Assembly: GCA_900318275.1 (NCBI GenBank)
Contig: ONJY01000027.1
Span: 1 to 54,270, forward strand
Direction: 5' to 3'
DNA: 54,270 bases
From: an uncultured Bacteroidales bacterium
Lineage (GTDB): Bacteria; Bacteroidota; Bacteroidia; Bacteroidales; P3
Part shown: positions 41,212 to 51,322 of the stretch, piece by piece
Layout: every line of letters starts with the position of its first letter
How positions within the stretch are numbered: position 1 is the stretch's first letter
Made by a program: the position numbers and the translations under genes
The notes under the pieces: generated by a model
The model's database searches: none
The model's input: the letters and a program-made list of their open reading frames with translations, nothing else
What the model was told of the DNA's origin: nothing

Positions 41212-42537
41212 TTACCGTCGGCTTTCCATCCATCGTTTCAACAAGAAAGAGCAACAGTACGGAAACGTGTAGAACTTGCCGTTGAAGCCAATGTTTTGGT
41301 GGCTCAGTTTGATTCCCCATTTCACATCAGGATAGCTGTCTCTGTCGATTAGTTTGTTCAATGACGGAGTGGCACCCGTAGTGGCTTTCACTTCCACAGG
41401 GATAAGCGTCGTGCTGTCGCGGACAAAGAAATCCATCTCCAGCTGGGCATTCTCCGTCTTGTAGTAATAAAGCTGGTAGCCCTGCTTGGCCAACGCTTCC
41501 GATACGATGTTCTCATACACGGCACCTTTGTACACACCGAGATTGCGGTTCTGCCGAAGGTCCATGCTCGATTCCTCGTCCAATGCCGCCATCAGCAGCC
41601 CGTTGTCGTGGTAGTAGAGTTTATACTTGCTTTCGTCATAGTTGCCTTTCAGCGGCAACTCTGGAAAATTCAGGCAGTGGCACACATTGACAATGCCGGC
41701 ATCCCTCAACCAATCCACACATCCTGCATACTCGCGGCTGCGGGCGTTTTTGGCCACCTTGGTTATCTGGAATTTCTTGTTTTCTTTGGCCAGAAACACG
41801 GGAATGTTCCTGTAAACACTTCTTATTTTGGCTTTGTCGAGACCTTGGGCGTATTTGATAATATCTTCCTCGTAGTCGGCCAACAACTGACGTTGCAGCG
41901 GCAGGACGTTCGAGAAATTCCCCTCATTGATGAAGGTGGCAACCACATCCGGCATTCCGCCCGTGACAACGTAGTCAAGAAACAGAGAATCCAGTCGTCG
42001 CATCTCAAGGTCGTTGAAAGGCCGAAGGTCAATCAGGTGCGACAGCAGCATCTCAACAAATTCTTCGTCATATCCTTTCGCCCACAGAAACTCCTCGAAG
42101 TCCATCGAATACATCATAACATCAGTCTTGTACCCTACGCTGTTTGAGGTGATGTCCTTGTAGTTCAGTCCCATCATCGAACCGGAGCAGATAACATCAT
42201 ATCGCCCATCCTCCTTAAAGAACTTGAGCGATGTAGCGCAGTCGGGATATTCCTGTAGTTCATCAAAGAAAATCAACGTATCTCCTTCGATGAACTTGGC
42301 ATTGGGATTGAGAAACGATATTTGCTTGACGACAGCATCCACATTGTACCCTTCTGAGAAGATCTGTTTGTAGAAAGGCTGTGTAATGAAGTTAATCTCT
42401 ATAAACGAGTTATACGAACGTCCAAACTCACGGACAGAATATGTCTTCCCTACCTGTCTTGCACCACCAATAATCAGAGGCTTTTTCTCCATGCTGCTCC
42501 TCCAATTCAGCAATTGCTTGTATATCTTCCTTTTCAT
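41212..42537 (-). CDS. AAA-family ATPase with DUF4143 domain
   Basis: A 441-residue protein of the common AAA_14 + DUF4143 type: IIGGARQVGKTYSV (P-loop), TLIFFDELQEYPD (Walker B), a sensor region YDVICSGSMMGLN, and the C-terminal DUF4143 domain ending in a PD-(D/E)XK-like strand pair (QLEMDFFVRDSTTLIPVEVKATTG, quoted in parts: EMDFFVRD and IPVEVKATTG). These proteins are frequent accessory genes of unknown role, possibly DNA-binding or toxin-like. It has its own promoter and three regularly spaced repeats in front, and is the first gene of the AT-richer island. Confidence 0.85.
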   Translation of the reverse strand: MKRKIYKQLLNWRSSMEKKPLIIGGARQVGKTYSVREFGRSYNSFIEINFITQPFYKQIFSEGYNVDAVVKQISFLNPNAKFIEGDTLIFFDELQEYPDCATSLKFFKEDGRYDVICSGSMMGLNYKDITSNSVGYKTDVMMYSMDFEEFLWAKGYDEEFVEMLLSHLIDLRPFNDLEMRRLDSLFLDYVVTGGMPDVVATFINEGNFSNVLPLQRQLLADYEEDIIKYAQGLDKAKIRSVYRNIPVFLAKENKKFQITKVAKNARSREYAGCVDWLRDAGIVNVCHCLNFPELPLKGNYDESKYKLYYHDNGLLMAALDEESSMDLRQNRNLGVYKGAVYENIVSEALAKQGYQLYYYKTENAQLEMDFFVRDSTTLIPVEVKATTGATPSLNKLIDRDSYPDVKWGIKLSHQNIGFNGKFYTFPYCCSFLLKRWMESRR

Positions 42538-42900: not shown

Positions 42901-45900
42901 TCATGACCCTTCGGCGACCCTTCGACAGTCGTTCGACGATGTCTTAAGAGTCAAGTTGGCGAGACAGACAGCAACCTCCTGTGGCTCTTCACGCGGACGC
43001 CAAGCGAGAATGTAACTCACTTCTGCATCAATAACTTGATATCCTTTTTCTTCATAATCCTTCATCCGGTCGCGCATGGCATTGGAGAGACTTGCAATGT
43101 ATTCACCATTCTCCGACAGCAAATAGCCATTGCGATAAGTCATTTTGTCTCCGCTGCGCAAATGTAATACCGATTCTTTTCTATCACGGAAAAAGTCTAA
43201 TTTCACATCTCGCATCGATAGCGAAAGAACTATTGTTGGTTGTGAAGTGAGGAATGAAGTGTCATTATAGATGAACAGATTGTGCTTGGCACGAGTAATA
43301 CCCACATAGATTGCACGCAACATATCATTGTCCATCCCTACAATACCACCAAGAACCAGATGGACGTTGTCAAATTCCCGACCTTTGGCTTTATGGATTG
43401 TACTTACAAATACTGTTTTGTCTTCGGTAGCAATAAAATCTTCAATACCTGATTCGAGGGCAAACTCACGAAGGTCACTACGAAAGTAGGTTTTATGTGT
43501 GGCCTCAAAGTCTGCAAGAAATTGTTTCATCGCTTCAAGGCACCGACTTGTACTGTATGCATTTTCGGTTCGACGTTTAGCCTCTCCCCACTGTTCTTTA
43601 CTGATTACGCCATCTTTGGAATTTCCAAGTTGTTTGAAAAAATAACGTACTTCAGCAAGGTTAACGAAACGGAAACCATCGGTAGCTTGAATAAGTCGAA
43701 CATGAATACCCTGCTGACGCAACAGGTGGGCAACCTGAAGAGATTGCTCATTTGTGATTGTAAGGACGGCCGTTGTGCCAGGCAGTTTGGTATCTGGGAA
43801 TAGTTGTAAGGAACTGGCTGAAGTATCCACAACGCCTTCATATTTGCTGACTGCTGTAATAGGCGTTTGCTTCATGCGGTTGGGAATCCTCTGAACAAAA
43901 CGGTTGGCAAACTCAACAATGGCGTGGTCGGAGCGATAGTTGTCTGTCAGTTCGTATAGCGTGGCATTGTAGTCGGTAATGAGCGAGCGCAGATGTGCAG
44001 AATTACTTCCACGGAAAGCGTAGATGTTCTGGTCGTCATCGCCTACTGCGATGACGCGCATATCCTCATTGCGATGCATCAGCGCTTTCACCAGACGGAA
44101 ATCGTCGGCACCCATATCCTGAGCCTCATCAACAACTAGTACGCTTTTTGCAATCTTGTTCTCCTCCACCTCTCCAGAATCTATCATATCGGCAGCGCGA
44201 GCCACCACACTGTCAGCCTCCTCGAGTGAACCCTGTCTCCCCAGCAGGTCGAAACTATACGAATGGAAGGTTTTTATATCGACAAAATGGGCTGCACCTC
44301 CATCCAATTCTATGAGACGTTTCTTGAATTCTGTTGCCGCCGCACGGGAGAATGTGAGCATCAGCAGTTGCTCGTGTTTCACATCTTCCATCCGTAACAG
44401 CGAGGCCAGTTTATGAACCAATACGCGTGTCTTTCCACTTCCCGGGCCAGCAGCCACAACAATATATTTGTTTTCCTTGTCGTCAATAATTTGACGCTGT
44501 CGTTCACTAAGGCCACCAAATATTTGCTCGTATTTTGCGGGGGTTATGTTTTTGGTAATTTGAGTGTGGCGTTCTCCTCGGAAGTATTTCCTTATGAAGA
44601 CTGCATAGTCCATCAGGAAGTAGTCGCTAACAAACTGCGTGGCAGCGTTGTAGTCACGCACCATCATGTTGGCATATTCGCCCACGATGTGAATCTGCTG
44701 GATTCGTTGTTTATAGAATTCGTCAAGCAGGCGATACTGTTCTTTCCCATAGCGTCGCGCACGTTCTACTAAACGGTGAATCTGCATGGTGCTGTATATC
44801 ACCATAAATCCACCTTCAATCTTCAACAACCCCATTCGGGAAAGGTAGAGCAGAGCCTCTTCCATATCGTTAAGAGACGGCTTCTCCTTGGAACCAAATG
44901 AGAATCCCTGCAGAGTAACATTATACTGCTCTAGCAACTCAACCATCGAGAAGGTTATCATCTTGTTGTTTGATGCTGAGATTTCCCCAAGCGACTTTGC
45001 TGCAAATCGGCATAATTCCACACGTCGTTCAAATCTGGTGAAAGTCGTCTCTCGATCAACCTGCAGGCGTATGCTTACACTTTCAGCTGTTCCACGGTGC
45101 TCATGCTTGTAGATATATCCTTTTGTGCTTAAGAAATGTAATAATGTGCGTAGCGTCTTTACCGTGCAACGAGAGTTACCTATTGTCTGGGCTTCAGCAT
45201 TGAGCAGCTTATAGTTAAATGTTTGAATATCTGTCGAAAGGTGTTCCAGTATAAAACGTTCAATTCGAAGAACCTCTTCCAATCCACGTGACACATTGGC
45301 GCGGTCGACATAGGCTTTCATATCCTGTGCGTCTGCCAATATCCCCTCTTGACGCATGAGGTTAACATTTCTAATTACGGTCTCTTTCGTCATTCCGAGG
45401 ATATCTGCCAAATAGTCAATTCGACTCTCGGCATCTGCTCCTCTACCGCCAGCCGTTGCTCGACTGCTGATAAGCGACCCGATAATTCGGGCAGCTTCTT
45501 CTCGTGTAGTCTCATCAAAAAGTGATGATGCCGTTAATCGACTACGTGCCTCGTCCATGGAACGCACTTTGATACCTGTAGCGAAAATATGAGGTGCATT
45601 GCTTCCCCGATGAATAAATCCAGCTTCTTCTAATGCCGTAACCGCACCTTTCACTCTCGTCTCAATATCGTTTCCTTCGTCTTCATTCCATCCCGCTTGC
45701 CGTGCTATTTCCAAAGGAGAGCAACTAACATAGTCTCGTTTGGCAGTAAGGTCTTTGATGGCTTTCCAAACCTGCTGAATCTCGCTAATGGAGAGTTTCG
45801 TCTGATTGAGAAGGATAAAATGCTTGTCCAAGTCGCTGTCACCAAATAGAACATAACATTCGGCCTCCATATTTGGGTCTCGTCCTGCACGTCCAGCCTC

Positions 45901-47913
45901 TTGGACGTAGTTCTCCAGGGAGTCGCTGATATCATAGTGAACAACTAACCCAACATCTTTCTTGTCTACACCCATACCAAATGCAGAAGTAGCCACAATA
46001 ACCTGTACCTCGCCGCCCATAAAGGCGTTTTGGTTGGTCACTTTTTCTGCCGACTCCATCTTACCGTTGAACGGCAATGCCAGAATACCATCACGCCTTA
46101 ATCGACCAGCAATTTCCATTGTCCGTCTGGTTCGGCTCACGTAAACGATAGTAGAACATCGATGTCCTATAATAAGGTTACGCAATTCGGAGTATTTTTC
46201 GTCTTCAGTTTCGGCATGAAGCACAGAATATCGAAGGTTCTTTCGTTCCGCACTAGCCGCAAAGATTTTCAATTCTAGGCCAAGTTTTTGCCTGAAATAC
46301 TCGCAGATATCACTCACCACCTTTTGCTTAGCAGTGGCCGTAAAACAAGAAACCGCTATGGGCTGTAACAGTTTTTTCTTCTCTTGAAGGCTGCGTATAA
46401 AATCACCAATATAAAGATAATCTGTGCGGAAATCCTGTCCCCAAGCTGAGAAGCAGTGGGCCTCGTCAATAACAAAACGCACCACATTACGGATTAGCAA
46501 CAACCGCTCAATGGTTTTGCTACGCAACATTTCGGGAGCGATATAGAGCAGATTGGCTGTTCCATCAGCTACCTGCTCTATTGCCGAAGCACGTTCTATG
46601 GGGTCAAGCAAGCCATTGATGGTCACAACGTCACTAATACCATGCTTGGCAAGATTATCTACCTGGTCTTTCATCAGGCTTTGGAGTGGCGAGATGACTA
46701 CCGTAAGCCCATGAATATTGCGCCCAGCCATAAGCGCTGGCAGCTGGAAAGTAAGGCTTTTGCCTCCTCCTGTGGGAAAGATGGTTAATAACGACTCTCC
46801 CCGGATAGCTGCTTCTACGGCCTGCTGCTGCATAGGGATACCATCGAATTGTCGGAATTCATCGTAACCGAAGAAATCCCTTAACCCGCTGTGGGCATCA
46901 AGTCGTCGCTTGCAGTATTCGCATTGTCCACAAGGTGTGTTTCGGATGAAATTCATTACATTGGTCACCTTGGGATAACTATGCATCACCCAAGCGGGTG
47001 TAATAGACGTCATATCGTCGGTACCTATCAAAGCCAACGAATAGGCCAATTCCACAGGATAATGCTTCACCACCGCTTCTATATTTGCATTCTCGCAAAT
47101 CATCCCATGGTATTCTTGTCGAATCAAAGCTCCGATGCTTTGATTCGCGCGAGGCGATTCTTCTGTCTTAATATAATCAAAGAATCCTCCAAATTCCTTA
47201 GTTTCCTTCAGTAGGCTGCTATAAATCTCATGTCTTTCAGGAGACAATAATCGCCAGCCTTCCAATTCATCATAAAACAAAGCTTGTGCTTTCTTAGCGT
47301 CATTGACGGGATTGTTCAACTCGTCCACCTGAAGTTTGTCGTCCTTCAATAGTCGATGATATGGCTTTCTCGGAAACAATAGCGGTGAGAGTGGTAGCGT
47401 GTCGATTACAGTGAAATCACCCGACAATTGAAGGTATTTCAAATCATGGTTAATGATATTGTGCCCACATAATGTGTTGCACGTTGATACGAAAGATCTG
47501 AACTCCTGCGCTGACTGCGTATGCAATACCGCACCATCCCCCCGCACGGCTCCATAGTCTTGTACCTTCTGTCTGTCAACACCAACCTCTGTGTCAATAA
47601 AAACTATATTCTCACTCTCATCATTTCCGTCTAAGGAAATATTGTATTTATTAGCGAGCCAATTAATAGATTCAACAAAATTATAATTTTTGTACTTCTT
47701 AAGAAATGCTATAACATCCCCACCCTCTCCACACGTAAAACACTTAAAAATACCCTTTTGAGGTGAAACATAAAGACTAGGAGTCCGTCCTCCATGAAAA
47801 GGACAAATGCCAACAAGGTTTGCCCCACGTTTCTTTAATGGTATAAATTCCCCTATCACATCTTCGATGCGGGAGCTATCCATTACTTGTTTTATTATTC
47901 GTTGGTCTAACAA
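42901..47913 (-). CDS. Fusion: DnaG-type CHC2 zinc finger, DEDD exonuclease, RecQ helicase, UvrD helicase
   Basis: A 1,670-residue protein. Start TTG 47913 is chosen because it gives MLDQRIIKQVMDSS, like DnaG, and because the -7 box at 47941 lies inside the longer frame. Residues 1-95: primase zinc finger with C37, H40, C58, C61, the same spacing as E. coli DnaG, but no TOPRIM follows. About 103-270: DnaQ-like exonuclease, FIDTEVG (D107, E109), HNIINHD (H156-D157), NPVNDAKKA. About 360-720: RecQ, TGGGKS, VIDEAHCFSAWGQDFR, QEAGRAGRDP. About 1140-1560: UvrD, GPGSGKTRV, VVDEAQD, GDDDQNIYAFRG, YVGITRAK. RecQ-UvrD proteins with a DEDD domain occur in Bacteroidota; the zinc finger is the unusual addition. 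Probable DNA repair or anti-phage role. Confidence 0.9.
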   Translation of the reverse strand: MLDQRIIKQVMDSSRIEDVIGEFIPLKKRGANLVGICPFHGGRTPSLYVSPQKGIFKCFTCGEGGDVIAFLKKYKNYNFVESINWLANKYNISLDGNDESENIVFIDTEVGVDRQKVQDYGAVRGDGAVLHTQSAQEFRSFVSTCNTLCGHNIINHDLKYLQLSGDFTVIDTLPLSPLLFPRKPYHRLLKDDKLQVDELNNPVNDAKKAQALFYDELEGWRLLSPERHEIYSSLLKETKEFGGFFDYIKTEESPRANQSIGALIRQEYHGMICENANIEAVVKHYPVELAYSLALIGTDDMTSITPAWVMHSYPKVTNVMNFIRNTPCGQCEYCKRRLDAHSGLRDFFGYDEFRQFDGIPMQQQAVEAAIRGESLLTIFPTGGGKSLTFQLPALMAGRNIHGLTVVISPLQSLMKDQVDNLAKHGISDVVTINGLLDPIERASAIEQVADGTANLLYIAPEMLRSKTIERLLLIRNVVRFVIDEAHCFSAWGQDFRTDYLYIGDFIRSLQEKKKLLQPIAVSCFTATAKQKVVSDICEYFRQKLGLELKIFAASAERKNLRYSVLHAETEDEKYSELRNLIIGHRCSTIVYVSRTRRTMEIAGRLRRDGILALPFNGKMESAEKVTNQNAFMGGEVQVIVATSAFGMGVDKKDVGLVVHYDISDSLENYVQEAGRAGRDPNMEAECYVLFGDSDLDKHFILLNQTKLSISEIQQVWKAIKDLTAKRDYVSCSPLEIARQAGWNEDEGNDIETRVKGAVTALEEAGFIHRGSNAPHIFATGIKVRSMDEARSRLTASSLFDETTREEAARIIGSLISSRATAGGRGADAESRIDYLADILGMTKETVIRNVNLMRQEGILADAQDMKAYVDRANVSRGLEEVLRIERFILEHLSTDIQTFNYKLLNAEAQTIGNSRCTVKTLRTLLHFLSTKGYIYKHEHRGTAESVSIRLQVDRETTFTRFERRVELCRFAAKSLGEISASNNKMITFSMVELLEQYNVTLQGFSFGSKEKPSLNDMEEALLYLSRMGLLKIEGGFMVIYSTMQIHRLVERARRYGKEQYRLLDEFYKQRIQQIHIVGEYANMMVRDYNAATQFVSDYFLMDYAVFIRKYFRGERHTQITKNITPAKYEQIFGGLSERQRQIIDDKENKYIVVAAGPGSGKTRVLVHKLASLLRMEDVKHEQLLMLTFSRAAATEFKKRLIELDGGAAHFVDIKTFHSYSFDLLGRQGSLEEADSVVARAADMIDSGEVEENKIAKSVLVVDEAQDMGADDFRLVKALMHRNEDMRVIAVGDDDQNIYAFRGSNSAHLRSLITDYNATLYELTDNYRSDHAIVEFANRFVQRIPNRMKQTPITAVSKYEGVVDTSASSLQLFPDTKLPGTTAVLTITNEQSLQVAHLLRQQGIHVRLIQATDGFRFVNLAEVRYFFKQLGNSKDGVISKEQWGEAKRRTENAYSTSRCLEAMKQFLADFEATHKTYFRSDLREFALESGIEDFIATEDKTVFVSTIHKAKGREFDNVHLVLGGIVGMDNDMLRAIYVGITRAKHNLFIYNDTSFLTSQPTIVLSLSMRDVKLDFFRDRKESVLHLRSGDKMTYRNGYLLSENGEYIASLSNAMRDRMKDYEEKGYQVIDAEVSYILAWRPREEPQEVAVCLANLTLKTSSNDCRRVAEGS
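42905..42937. repeat. Three 11-base units in the 3' end of the helicase fusion gene
   Basis: GACCCTTCGGC, GACCCTTCGAC, AGTCGTTCGAC in 11-base register just before the stop (minus strand) of the fusion gene; they encode the final residues and resemble the TTCGACCATCG units of the intergenic array at 22235. Confidence 0.6.
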
Positions 47914-47970: not shown

Positions 47971-48038
47971 CATATTATTTCATTCATAGCCGAAAACGAT
48001 AGGAAAGAGAGAGACACCTGACAGGCAGAGCAATAGAA

Positions 48039-48067: not shown

Positions 48068-48094
48068 GCTGTTTCCGCTTTGCGGAGCAGAGGA

Positions 48095-48168
48095 CTATTC
48101 TTCCTCGGCGGCGGCAAAGCATCACTGGTGCTTTGCTCATCGTAGGCCTTGAGGAGAGCCTGCTGTAG
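48095..48168 (-). pseudogene. Duplicated 3' end of the EF-G2 gene
   Basis: 48095-48114 matches the last 20 bases of EF-G2 (49190-49209) at 19 of 20 positions, including the stop codon; 48136-48168 matches 49210-49241 (about 26 of 30). Between them is a 21-base near-perfect palindrome (CAAAGCATCA-C-TGGTGCTTTG). On the minus strand the text reads LLQQALLKAYDE, compared with VQQALLKAYEE in EF-G2. Confidence 0.75.
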
Positions 48169-48180
48169 TGTGCTTAAGAA

Positions 48181-49002
48181 CTACATTCCCCCAATTAATT
48201 CCTCCTTCGGCATCTCCATTTTAGTGAAGGCAAACCACTTCTTGCCGAGGTCTTTCAGCGAGGCTCCTATGTGATAGACGGTATTGTCGATGCAGAGGAA
48301 GCGGTCATGGACTTTGCCAAACTCCTTCACCTCAATAGGCTGATACTGGGAATTGTGTTTTGTTAGGTCGAGAGAGAATTGTTTCGAGATGCTTTTGGTG
48401 TAAATGGTGGCTAATACTTTCTTCTTCCGCTTGTCCAGCATCGTCAGCACTGTGTCGTCCACATAGTTGTCGAACAACACTATGCTCTTCTTCGCCGACC
48501 GGATAAGGTCGGAAACAAAAGTGTAGGCATCAAATATCTGCCCATCATAGAAAATGCCCTCCACTGGCGGCAACGAGGTTTTTACAAAGAAATCAATCTT
48601 TTTATCGTGTTCCTCTATCTTACGTTCTATGTTTGTCAAACGCTGATTTATAGCATACCCCTTCAATAAATAGTCTTTTAATACAGCGTTTGCCCATTTG
48701 CGGAATAAGACACCTCGTTGGGACTTTACTCTATAACCAACTGAAATAATGACATCAAGATTATAGTATTCAACTTGATATGTTTTACCGTCAGCAGCAG
48801 TTGTCGCAAATTTTGCGACAACTGGAGTTCCATTCAGTTCTTCTGAGAGTGCATTCGCAATGTGCTTGCCAACAGTTTTTACATCGCGCTGGAAAAGTGC
48901 AGCCATTTGCTGACGATTGAGCCAAACCGTTTCTTCGTTCAAACGGACCTCCAATTTAACATCATTATCCGGCTGATAGAGTATTATCTCTCCTTTATCC
49001 AT
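48181..49002 (-). CDS. RhuM-family protein with PLD-like C-terminus
   Basis: A 273-residue protein. Residues 1-125 are the RhuM domain: ILYQPDNDVKLEVRLNEETVWLNRQQMAALFQRD, quoted as LNEETVWLNRQQMAALF; VEYYNLDVIISVGYRV and RFRKWA-like VLFRKWANAVLKDYLLKGY. Residues 145-265 resemble a phospholipase-D-type fold: YDGQIFDAYTFVSDLIRSAKKSIVLFDNYVDD and VHDRFLCIDNTVYHIGASLKDLG, where HDRFLCID is an HKD-like motif with Arg for Lys. RhuM genes are scattered accessory genes in islands and phages; DNA binding by the first part is likely. The coding sequence holds one of two identical palindromes. Confidence 0.85.
   Translation of the reverse strand: MDKGEIILYQPDNDVKLEVRLNEETVWLNRQQMAALFQRDVKTVGKHIANALSEELNGTPVVAKFATTAADGKTYQVEYYNLDVIISVGYRVKSQRGVLFRKWANAVLKDYLLKGYAINQRLTNIERKIEEHDKKIDFFVKTSLPPVEGIFYDGQIFDAYTFVSDLIRSAKKSIVLFDNYVDDTVLTMLDKRKKKVLATIYTKSISKQFSLDLTKHNSQYQPIEVKEFGKVHDRFLCIDNTVYHIGASLKDLGKKWFAFTKMEMPKEELIGGM
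48799..48823. repeat. 25-base palindrome inside the RhuM gene
   Basis: Arms AGTTGTCGCAAA and TTTGCGACAACT with one central base. It encodes VVAKFATT. The identical palindrome recurs at 49062-49086. Confidence 0.95.
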
Positions 49003-49061: not shown

Positions 49062-49086
49062 AGTTGTCGCAAAATTTGCGACAACT
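49062..49086. promoter_or_regulatory. 25-base palindrome upstream of the RhuM gene, candidate operator
   Basis: Same 12-base arms AGTTGTCGCAAA/TTTGCGACAACT with one central base, 60 bases before the RhuM ATG. On the minus strand the right half contains AAATTTTG, one mismatch from a -7 box (TAnnTTTG), so it overlaps the likely promoter. Confidence 0.7.
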
Positions 49087-49133
49087 GAACATTACTAATA
49101 ACGCATTTCTCTCTGGTTTATTGCGCAAAAGAA

Positions 49134-49167: not shown

Positions 49168-49189
49168 CGTGTTAAGTAGAAACTGACGG

Positions 49190-51322
49190 CTATTCTTCCT
49201 CAGCGGCGGCTTCCTCGTAGGCCTTGAGTAGGGCCTGCTGGACGTCGGCGGGGACGAGCTCGTAGCTGCTGAAGGTCATGGTGAAGGTACCGCGGCCGCT
49301 GGTGAGGGAACTCAGGGCGGTGCAGTAGCGGTTCATCTCGGCCAAGGGGGCCTTGGCTTTCAGCGTGGTGTACTTGCCTTCGGCATCCATGCCCATGACG
49401 ATGGCGCGGCGACCCTGCAGGTCGGTCATCACACCACCCTGTGCCTCGGTGGGCACGGTGACGGCGATGTCGTAGATAGGCTCCTTGATCTTCGGGGCTG
49501 CCTGCTTGAAGGCCTCGCGGAAGGCGGTACGGCCGGCGATCTTGAAGGCCGTTTCGTTGGAGTCGACGGGGTGCATCTTACCGTCGTAGATGTTGACGAC
49601 GATGTCGCGGGCGTAGCTGCCGGTCAGAGGACCCTGCTCCATCTTCTCCATGATACCCTTGAGGATGGCGGGCATGAAGCGGGCGTCGATCGAACCACCC
49701 ACGATGCAGTTGTTGAAGACCAGCTTGCCGCCCCACTCCAGAGGATACTCCTGGGTGTCGCGGATGGGGTACTTGGTCTGGTTGGGCATGCCGTCGTAGT
49801 AGGGCTCGATGAGCATGTGAACCTCGCCGAACTGGCCGCTACCACCCGACTGTTTCTTGTGGCGGTACATGGCCTCGGCGCTCTTGGTGATGGTCTCGCG
49901 GTAGGGGATGTTGGGGGCGGTGAAGTTGACGGCCAGCTTGTACTGGTTCTCGAAGTACCACTTCACGGTGTTGAGGTGGAGCTCACCCTGGCAGCCAAGG
50001 ATGACCTGGCGCAGCTCGCGGCTGTTCTCGAGCGTGAGGCTGCGGTCGTAGGTCACGAGGTCTTTCAGAGCGGCGCCGACCTTCTCGTCGTCGTTGCTGT
50101 TGGCGGCCTTCACGGCGACGGTGTAGATGGGAGTCGGGAACTCGATCTCGCAGACGGCGTCGTCGGTGTTCTTCGGGGTGGTGAGGGTATGGTTGATCTT
50201 GACATCCTTGAGCTTGATGGTGCAGACGATGTCGCCGGCGCAAGCCTTCTCGACGCGCTGGCGGTTGCTGCCGCTGCACACGAGGACCTGGCTGACGCGC
50301 TCCTTGCTCTGGTTGCAGGCGTTGACCACATCCTGGGCCTCGGCCAGCTCGCCATCGTAGATACGGAGGTAGCTGATCTCACCGAGGTTCTTGTCCTTGG
50401 CGCTCTTGAAGCAGAAGGCCACGGTGGGGTTGGCATTGTTGCACTTCAGCTCTTTGCCGCCTTTGGTCTTCTTGGCATCGGCCACCTCGCAGGGGGCGGG
50501 GACGTTCTGGCAGATGAACTCGAGCAGACGGTTGACGCCAAAGTTCTCCTTGGCGCTGGTGCAGAGGATGGGGAAGAGGTCGCGCTTGTCGATGGCGAGC
50601 TTCAAAGCTTGGGTCAGCTCTTCAGCGGTCAGGTCGCCATTCTCAAAATATTTCTCCATGAGGGCGTCGTCGGCAGCGGCGGCTTCCTCGACGAGGGCCA
50701 TGCGCATCTCCTCGGCCTTGTCGGCATACTGGCTGGGGATGTCGGCCTCGGTGTACTTACCGTCGGTGAAGGTGTACATCTTGTTGGCCACAATGTCGAC
50801 CACCTGGTTGAAGCCGAGACCGGCGTTGGTGGGGAACTGGAGCACGGTGCACTTGCCACCGAAGTAGTCCTTCAGCTGGTTGACGGCTTCGTCGAAGTTG
50901 GCCTTCTCGGCGTCGAGGTGGTTGACGACGAAGAGCATCGGGGTGTCGAGCTTGGCAGCGTAGCGGTTGGCTATCTCGGTGCCGACCTCGACGCCGCTCT
51001 GGGCGTTGACCACGACGACGGCAGCCTCGACCACGTTGAGGGCGCTGTCGAGCTCACCCTGGTAGTCGGCGAAGCCGGGCACATCGAGGATGTTCACCTT
51101 CTTGCCACCGAACTCGGTGTACATGAGGGTGTTCTCCACGGAGTAGCCGCGGTCGTGCTCGATGTCGCGATAGTCGCTGATGGTGTTCTTGCTGTCCACG
51201 GAGCCACGACGGTTGATGAGGCCGCCGCAGAAAGCCATAGCTTCAGCCATAGAGGTCTTGCCGGATTTGGCGCCGCCCACGAGGGCGATGTTGCGGATGT
51301 CCTGAGTCTGATAAATTTTCAT
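49190..51322 (-). CDS. fusA2: Elongation factor G paralogue EF-G2, catalytic His replaced
   Basis: A 710-residue protein with the five-domain EF-G layout. The G domain is altered: GGAKSGKTS in place of GHIDAGKTT, HDRGYSV in place of ERGITI, and DVPGF (residues 80-84) in place of DTPGH, so the histidine needed for GTP hydrolysis is Phe84. Domain IV has GSGQFGEVHMLIEP, then GSIDARFMPAILKG. In Bacteroides the EF-G2 paralogue supports slow translation without GTP hydrolysis under carbon starvation; this protein has the features expected of that group. A promoter and a leader hairpin lie upstream, a terminator downstream. Confidence 0.9.
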   Translation of the reverse strand: MKIYQTQDIRNIALVGGAKSGKTSMAEAMAFCGGLINRRGSVDSKNTISDYRDIEHDRGYSVENTLMYTEFGGKKVNILDVPGFADYQGELDSALNVVEAAVVVVNAQSGVEVGTEIANRYAAKLDTPMLFVVNHLDAEKANFDEAVNQLKDYFGGKCTVLQFPTNAGLGFNQVVDIVANKMYTFTDGKYTEADIPSQYADKAEEMRMALVEEAAAADDALMEKYFENGDLTAEELTQALKLAIDKRDLFPILCTSAKENFGVNRLLEFICQNVPAPCEVADAKKTKGGKELKCNNANPTVAFCFKSAKDKNLGEISYLRIYDGELAEAQDVVNACNQSKERVSQVLVCSGSNRQRVEKACAGDIVCTIKLKDVKINHTLTTPKNTDDAVCEIEFPTPIYTVAVKAANSNDDEKVGAALKDLVTYDRSLTLENSRELRQVILGCQGELHLNTVKWYFENQYKLAVNFTAPNIPYRETITKSAEAMYRHKKQSGGSGQFGEVHMLIEPYYDGMPNQTKYPIRDTQEYPLEWGGKLVFNNCIVGGSIDARFMPAILKGIMEKMEQGPLTGSYARDIVVNIYDGKMHPVDSNETAFKIAGRTAFREAFKQAAPKIKEPIYDIAVTVPTEAQGGVMTDLQGRRAIVMGMDAEGKYTTLKAKAPLAEMNRYCTALSSLTSGRGTFTMTFSSYELVPADVQQALLKAYEEAAAEEE

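Follow-up and report, generated by a model that had tools for sequence, protein, structure and literature searches.

Gene architecture and genomic setting

The window, by which we mean the whole stretch of 54,270 nucleotides analysed here, stems from a rumen-type Bacteroidales host and encodes a protein in which a CHC2 finger, a DEDD-fold exonuclease, a RecQ-type helicase and a UvrD-type helicase follow each other in a single frame (Table 1). A first-pass annotation had read the four modules in this order from the DNA, and domain matches bore this out, the DnaG-type finger included. The catalytic motifs searched for were present in the window protein. Among the other fused proteins, the linker between finger and exonuclease varies in sequence and length. 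An alternative in-frame ATG is found at 47973, upstream of the TTG start, and the reverse-strand segment 47941..47970, also upstream of the TTG start, contains a candidate promoter-like sequence of the Bacteroidales type (TTG ... TATCTTTG).

Table 1. Position of the gene for the fused protein, its parts and its neighbours in the window.
Feature	Coordinates	Strand	Details
Whole gene (CHC2 finger, DEDD-fold exonuclease, RecQ, UvrD)	42901..47913	-	1,670 aa; TTG start at 47913
DnaG-type zinc-binding domain	47620..47913	-	residues 1-98; zinc ligands C37, H40, C58, C61
Short finger-exonuclease linker	47608..47619	-	residues 99-102
DEDD-fold exonuclease domain and linking helices	46894..47607	-	residues 103-340; D107, E109, D157, D205
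CGQCEYC cluster			residues 328-334, within the exonuclease/linking-helix segment
RecQ-type helicase core	45634..46893	-	approx. residues 341-760; Walker A 381-386, DEAH 482-487, motif VI 671-679
UvrD-type helicase core	43264..44508	-	approx. residues 1136-1550; Walker A 1156-1162, DEAQD 1262-1266, GITRA 1538-1542
Neighbour, AAA_14 and DUF4143 ATPase	41212..42537	-	PADLOC candidate PDC-S01
Neighbour, RhuM-family protein	48181..49002	-	PADLOC candidate PDC-S05

The gene lies in an island of approximately 41.2–49.0 kb that is flanked by an elongation-factor-G-like gene and a permease. With a GC content of 0.40–0.48 between 41 and 49 kb, compared to 0.50–0.65 in most other kilobases, and with the matches of both neighbours to PADLOC candidate families, the AT-rich island with RhuM and DUF4143 neighbours that had been proposed earlier was confirmed.

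Exonuclease and helicase modules

The four acidic residues of the DEDD motif, which was assigned by eye, were invariant in all 45 rows of a hand-chosen exonuclease alignment. In the predicted structure, the exonuclease part matched RNase H-like exonuclease folds, most closely one of the DinG kind, and the accompanying structure alignment comprised 51 of the 71 family proteins and 16 DnaG fingers, again chosen by hand. A search of PDB sequences with an exonuclease profile returned chance hits only and no residue-level alignment. The place of the DEDDh histidine, five residues before the last Asp as judged by motif spacing only, is taken by Asn in the window protein (NNP[VL]ND), which could change or abolish the activity of the exonuclease; an invariant histidine, His186 (PYH), sits elsewhere in the domain. 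Residues 182–205 (window 47299-47370) form a PYHxLxKDDK...NNP[VL]ND stretch, highly conserved across the exonuclease family, where the DEDDh histidine motif is usual.

The helicase motifs were conserved in 70 or all of the 71 family proteins. With 274.2 bits against TIGR00614 (cut-off 219.8), the first motor qualifies as a RecQ-type SF2 helicase core; it did not reach the canonical RecQ equivalog TIGR01389 (302.6 of 640.2 bits), and RQC and HRDC were absent among the Pfam matches at E 0.1. The second motor matched PF00580 with 116.5 bits and contains the Walker A, DEAQD and motif VI elements of the UvrD/Rep/PcrA group of SF1A helicases.

RecBCD and AddAB likewise bring together a nuclease and motors that work on DNA ends, and the window protein resembles them in this working mode, but their nuclease fold is different and their subunits are separate, and it is not a member of either group. 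PADLOC profiles for DpdF, PsyrT and GajB, listed without cut-offs, matched the helicase cores of the window protein, with the best stretches confined to helicase parts, and the NCBIfam profile for DpdF was matched with 194 bits compared to a cut-off of 550. For the Dpd, Gabija and PsyrTA systems, the PADLOC matches were to helicases only, and the immediate neighbours of the gene are RhuM and DUF4143 proteins. DinG of Staphylococcus aureus and Bacillus subtilis likewise joins a DEDD exonuclease to a helicase of superfamily SF2, whose motor is however of the XPD type instead of the RecQ type, and it is not known to contain a UvrD motor or a finger. B. subtilis DinG is reported to degrade linear single-stranded DNA from 3' to 5' (PMC12525004).

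The exonuclease-RecQ-UvrD family and its neighbours

Among 120 genomes of the genus, at least 64 gave a match to the exonuclease part, some of these matches being fragments; the same was true of at least 30 of 393 genomes sampled from the order and, at E 1e-20, of 15 of 395 genomes sampled from the phylum, the genome of the window being counted each time. The best 80 of 466 relatives included, besides Bacteroidota, records named Clostridia, Treponema, Desulfosporosinus, Cloacimonadota and others. Four plasmid records cover at least 80% of the whole protein, while a search of viral contigs with six peptide patterns found no relative. In two plasmid proteins, both annotated as 'RecQ family ATP-dependent DNA helicase' (NZ_OY725908.1, 54.6% identity; NZ_CP043858.1, 33.9%), exonuclease, RecQ and UvrD align over 91–92% of the window protein; both lack the CHC2 finger, and the alignments begin at the exonuclease. 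The core of three modules represents a family that is widespread and has moved horizontally. Within the open-licence PubMed Central literature it seems to be functionally uncharacterised, and no description of the fusion was recognised there.

Four pairs of fused and unfused genes were compared with flanks of up to 6 kb, the upstream part being limited to 0.7–1.4 kb for L088, L090 and L093. DNA similarity did not extend beyond the gene, except for two matches of 29–34 bases that lie over 4 kb downstream in one pair. It therefore appears that the gene moves as a one-gene unit.

Of the best 80 loci, four were removed by hand (L103, L129, L149 and L161) and six more because of internal stops, leaving 70 loci plus the window. 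No constant neighbour of the family emerged from these 71 loci. The suggestion that RhuM and DUF4143 proteins accompany the gene did not hold: a DUF4143-type relative was found within 4.5 kb in 3 of 71 loci, including the window, and RhuM was not among the neighbours common to at least three loci. A Schlafen-group-3 helicase gene (PADLOC PDC-S41) adjoins the exonuclease-RecQ-UvrD gene in 5 of 71 loci (L088:6138-8267, L094:14777-16900, L096, L097 and L098, two of which are near-copies), in four cases within approximately 20 bases, and we regard it as the most telling neighbour of the family.

The proteins of the nearest neighbours matched more PADLOC families than distant ones, namely 86 families by 115 proteins compared to 14 families by 75 proteins, a tally that counts families instead of proteins, compares sets of unequal size and covers 115 of 131 near and 75 of 79 far open reading frames, the omitted ones being mostly short. 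This contrast is a hint of defence company. Many flanks consist of ordinary housekeeping genes, among them ClpB-, MnmG- and DnaE-like core genes recognised by eye at several loci, and a gene for a NUDIX hydrolase overlaps the fused gene at its end in one relative (L090:6469-6864) and lies two genes downstream in another (L088:8267-8653, by blastp likeness only). Such company, together with the fact that every module has relatives in DNA repair, would fit an accessory enzyme for end resection or fork rescue of the housekeeping type, whose finger binds single-stranded gaps and whose patchiness reflects ordinary gene turnover. Its listing in little more than half of the genus genomes, the unrelated flanks in the four pairs, the excess of PADLOC families close to the gene and the presence of other RecQ-like and UvrD-like frames in the host genome argue against this explanation, which we consider somewhat unlikely.

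Descent of the finger from DnaG

The CHC2 zinc-binding domain, a feature of DnaG, is present in the fused protein. The first-pass annotation had noted that a TOPRIM core is missing, and indeed neither Toprim nor DNAG_N was matched in any of the four fused proteins in a Pfam search at E 0.1, whereas the same search detected both domains in four of seven other long CHC2 frames. The NCBIfam dnaG match was limited to residues 23–121 of a 1,690-aa frame and reached 113.7 of 283.6 bits. In comparison with DnaG primase (PDB 1d0q, zinc-binding domain), the fused protein thus differs by the lack of a TOPRIM match and by a largely changed NEKTPSF motif. Priming is not expected of it, as a TOPRIM core was not detected.

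The seven other frames (L217-L223) are from the genus, comprise 1,004–1,116 aa and carry N-terminal CHC2 fingers. Four of them are DnaG-type primases with extra C-terminal parts; the other three show a weak CHC2 match (two below the Pfam cut-off) and no Toprim, two of them with a sub-cut-off DUF3854 match, so that finger frames without Toprim are not strictly unique to the fusion. None of the seven matched RecQ or UvrD.

A tree was calculated from 46 fingers, the four fused ones and 42 others collected by motif pattern from the available loci, with identical fingers used once. The fused fingers formed one clade (support 100/98) inside the DnaG fingers of the genus, on branches that the tree program flags as long. 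They are 54–62% identical to six DnaG fingers of the host genus, and phage fingers among the matches listed reached at most 48%. By sequence, the finger is derived from the DnaG fingers of the host's genus. Of 42 positions that are at least 97% conserved in 40 DnaG fingers (two of the 42 were left out of this count), 19 are kept in all four fused proteins, including every zinc ligand. T6I, E42G, H74Y and E75K, all at DnaG-conserved positions, are common to the four, which indicates a single origin. The DnaG finger helps to recognise a template trinucleotide (PMC6163395); because most of the NEKTPSF motif is altered in the fused fingers, template reading may not be conserved.

In the six pairs of fused proteins, pN of the finger was 0.18–0.29 and pS 0.70–0.86. 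The dN/dS ratio was approximately 0.1 in the two pairs where it was computable, a rough value because synonymous sites are saturated. With pN far below pS, the finger looks as if it is maintained by selection, although it evolves approximately 1.5–2 times as fast as the core. A chance fusion that left a passive finger without function might explain why the finger is rare, with four cases found, and missing from sisters of 88–90% identity. However, the C, H, C, C ligands and the open frame are kept in 4 of 4 proteins over saturating synonymous divergence, and finger and core trees divide the four identically. This explanation is already disfavoured and, in our estimate, improbable.

The finger could also serve as an integrated bait: foreign proteins that target the DnaG of the host would bind this copy of its finger and thereby trigger the nuclease-helicase. 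Its grouping with DnaG fingers of the host genus instead of phage fingers, its faster evolution and its gain or loss between close relatives are consistent with such a role. Fast evolution has duller causes, such as relaxed constraint, and a phage protein directed against the DnaG finger in these hosts is not known to us; a bait function by itself appears hardly probable.

Distribution, gain and loss of the finger

The fusion was found in four assemblies, whose fused genes are closely related: the window, G014 (= L087), G141 (= L090) and L088. Within the genus, three of the 64 carriers listed contain the finger and 61 lack it (120 genomes), and in the genome collection it occurred in three of the best 80 of 466 relatives, the record of the window itself possibly being absent there. 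No other carrier among the matches listed for the order and phylum samples had a finger, and no record of the plasmid and phage collections covered 80% of a finger-exonuclease query. The named relatives are metagenome assemblies, a point in favour of an assembly chimera of a dnaG fragment and the helicase gene. Contrary to the possibility, raised in the first-pass annotation, that the fusion is unique to this assembly, it recurs in three others, and each of the fused genomes searched (G000, G014 and G141, 3 of 3) has a separate DnaG-type frame. As the same architecture exists in four separate assemblies with differing linkers and flanks, and as the fused fingers are just 54–62% identical to the DnaG fingers compared, mis-assembly is very unlikely, to the point that we consider the chimera practically ruled out.

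In core trees of 21 and 22 hand-chosen rows, each fused protein was sister to an unfused one, with identities of 88%, 88%, 90% and 88%, and at least four changes of the finger state are forced. If the finger had been gained once, at the base of the clade of 12 rows, eight losses would have to follow (hand count). Since the fused fingers form one clade and each fused protein has such a close finger-less sister, the finger arose once here and was later lost or exchanged several times. In most unfused sisters a methionine directly precedes the exonuclease; read by eye, this placement agrees with exchange no less than with repeated loss.

Inspection of the DNA upstream of unfused relatives by eye and by profile revealed no finger remnants. 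With stops masked, the finger profile detected only the window, G141 and G014 in 85 loci from genus, order and phylum, besides a chance hit with E 0.09. Some tblastn matches in unfused relatives begin before the exonuclease (residues 29–95), several of them with stops. A finger supplied in trans near unfused sisters was not found either, as judged by a profile search of eight unfused loci. Because the fusion comes and goes between close relatives, the finger looks like an optional plug-in module that may aim the enzyme at DNA.

Possible function of the fused protein

Our preferred, albeit tentative, explanation is an all-in-one enzyme for DNA unwinding and degradation, in which the finger aids the engagement of single-stranded or primed DNA; its role is probably defensive. 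RecQ-type and UvrD-type motors move from 3' to 5', and both motors of the fused protein would do the same, while the exonuclease would remove 3' ends. Given this polarity and end removal, the protein would unwind and degrade free or nicked DNA in a manner similar to RecBCD or AddAB. Joined to a nuclease and two motors, the finger most likely provides a further contact with DNA, which could serve as an extra hold on single strands or forks and load the machine onto replicating foreign DNA. At least 61 of the 64 carriers listed in the genus manage without a finger, which speaks against this explanation.

A more elaborate and rather unlikely scenario starts from a duplication that placed the primase finger of the host on a defence nuclease-helicase. 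There the finger would work as a sensing module that can be removed: it would either steer the enzyme to single-stranded or primed DNA on the lagging strand of an invader or serve as bait for attackers of DnaG, and lineages would toggle it by losing or exchanging the 5' end of the gene. In the preferred reading of an unwinding and degrading enzyme as well as in the repair alternative, a domain of replication initiation has been relocated to a motor that degrades or repairs DNA; what is rare is the finger, and the exonuclease-RecQ-UvrD core is common. Since close finger-less sisters constitute natural controls, the job of a DnaG finger outside priming becomes testable.

At the RhuM end of the island, the 3' end of the elongation-factor-G-like gene (49190-51322) is repeated approximately 1.08–1.1 kb away, beyond the RhuM gene (48090-48165 and 49185-49240), as if RhuM had been inserted with duplication of the gene end. 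A 26-base palindrome occurs twice with 96% likeness, inside the RhuM gene (48798-48824) and upstream of it (49062-49087), and possibly represents a candidate operator.
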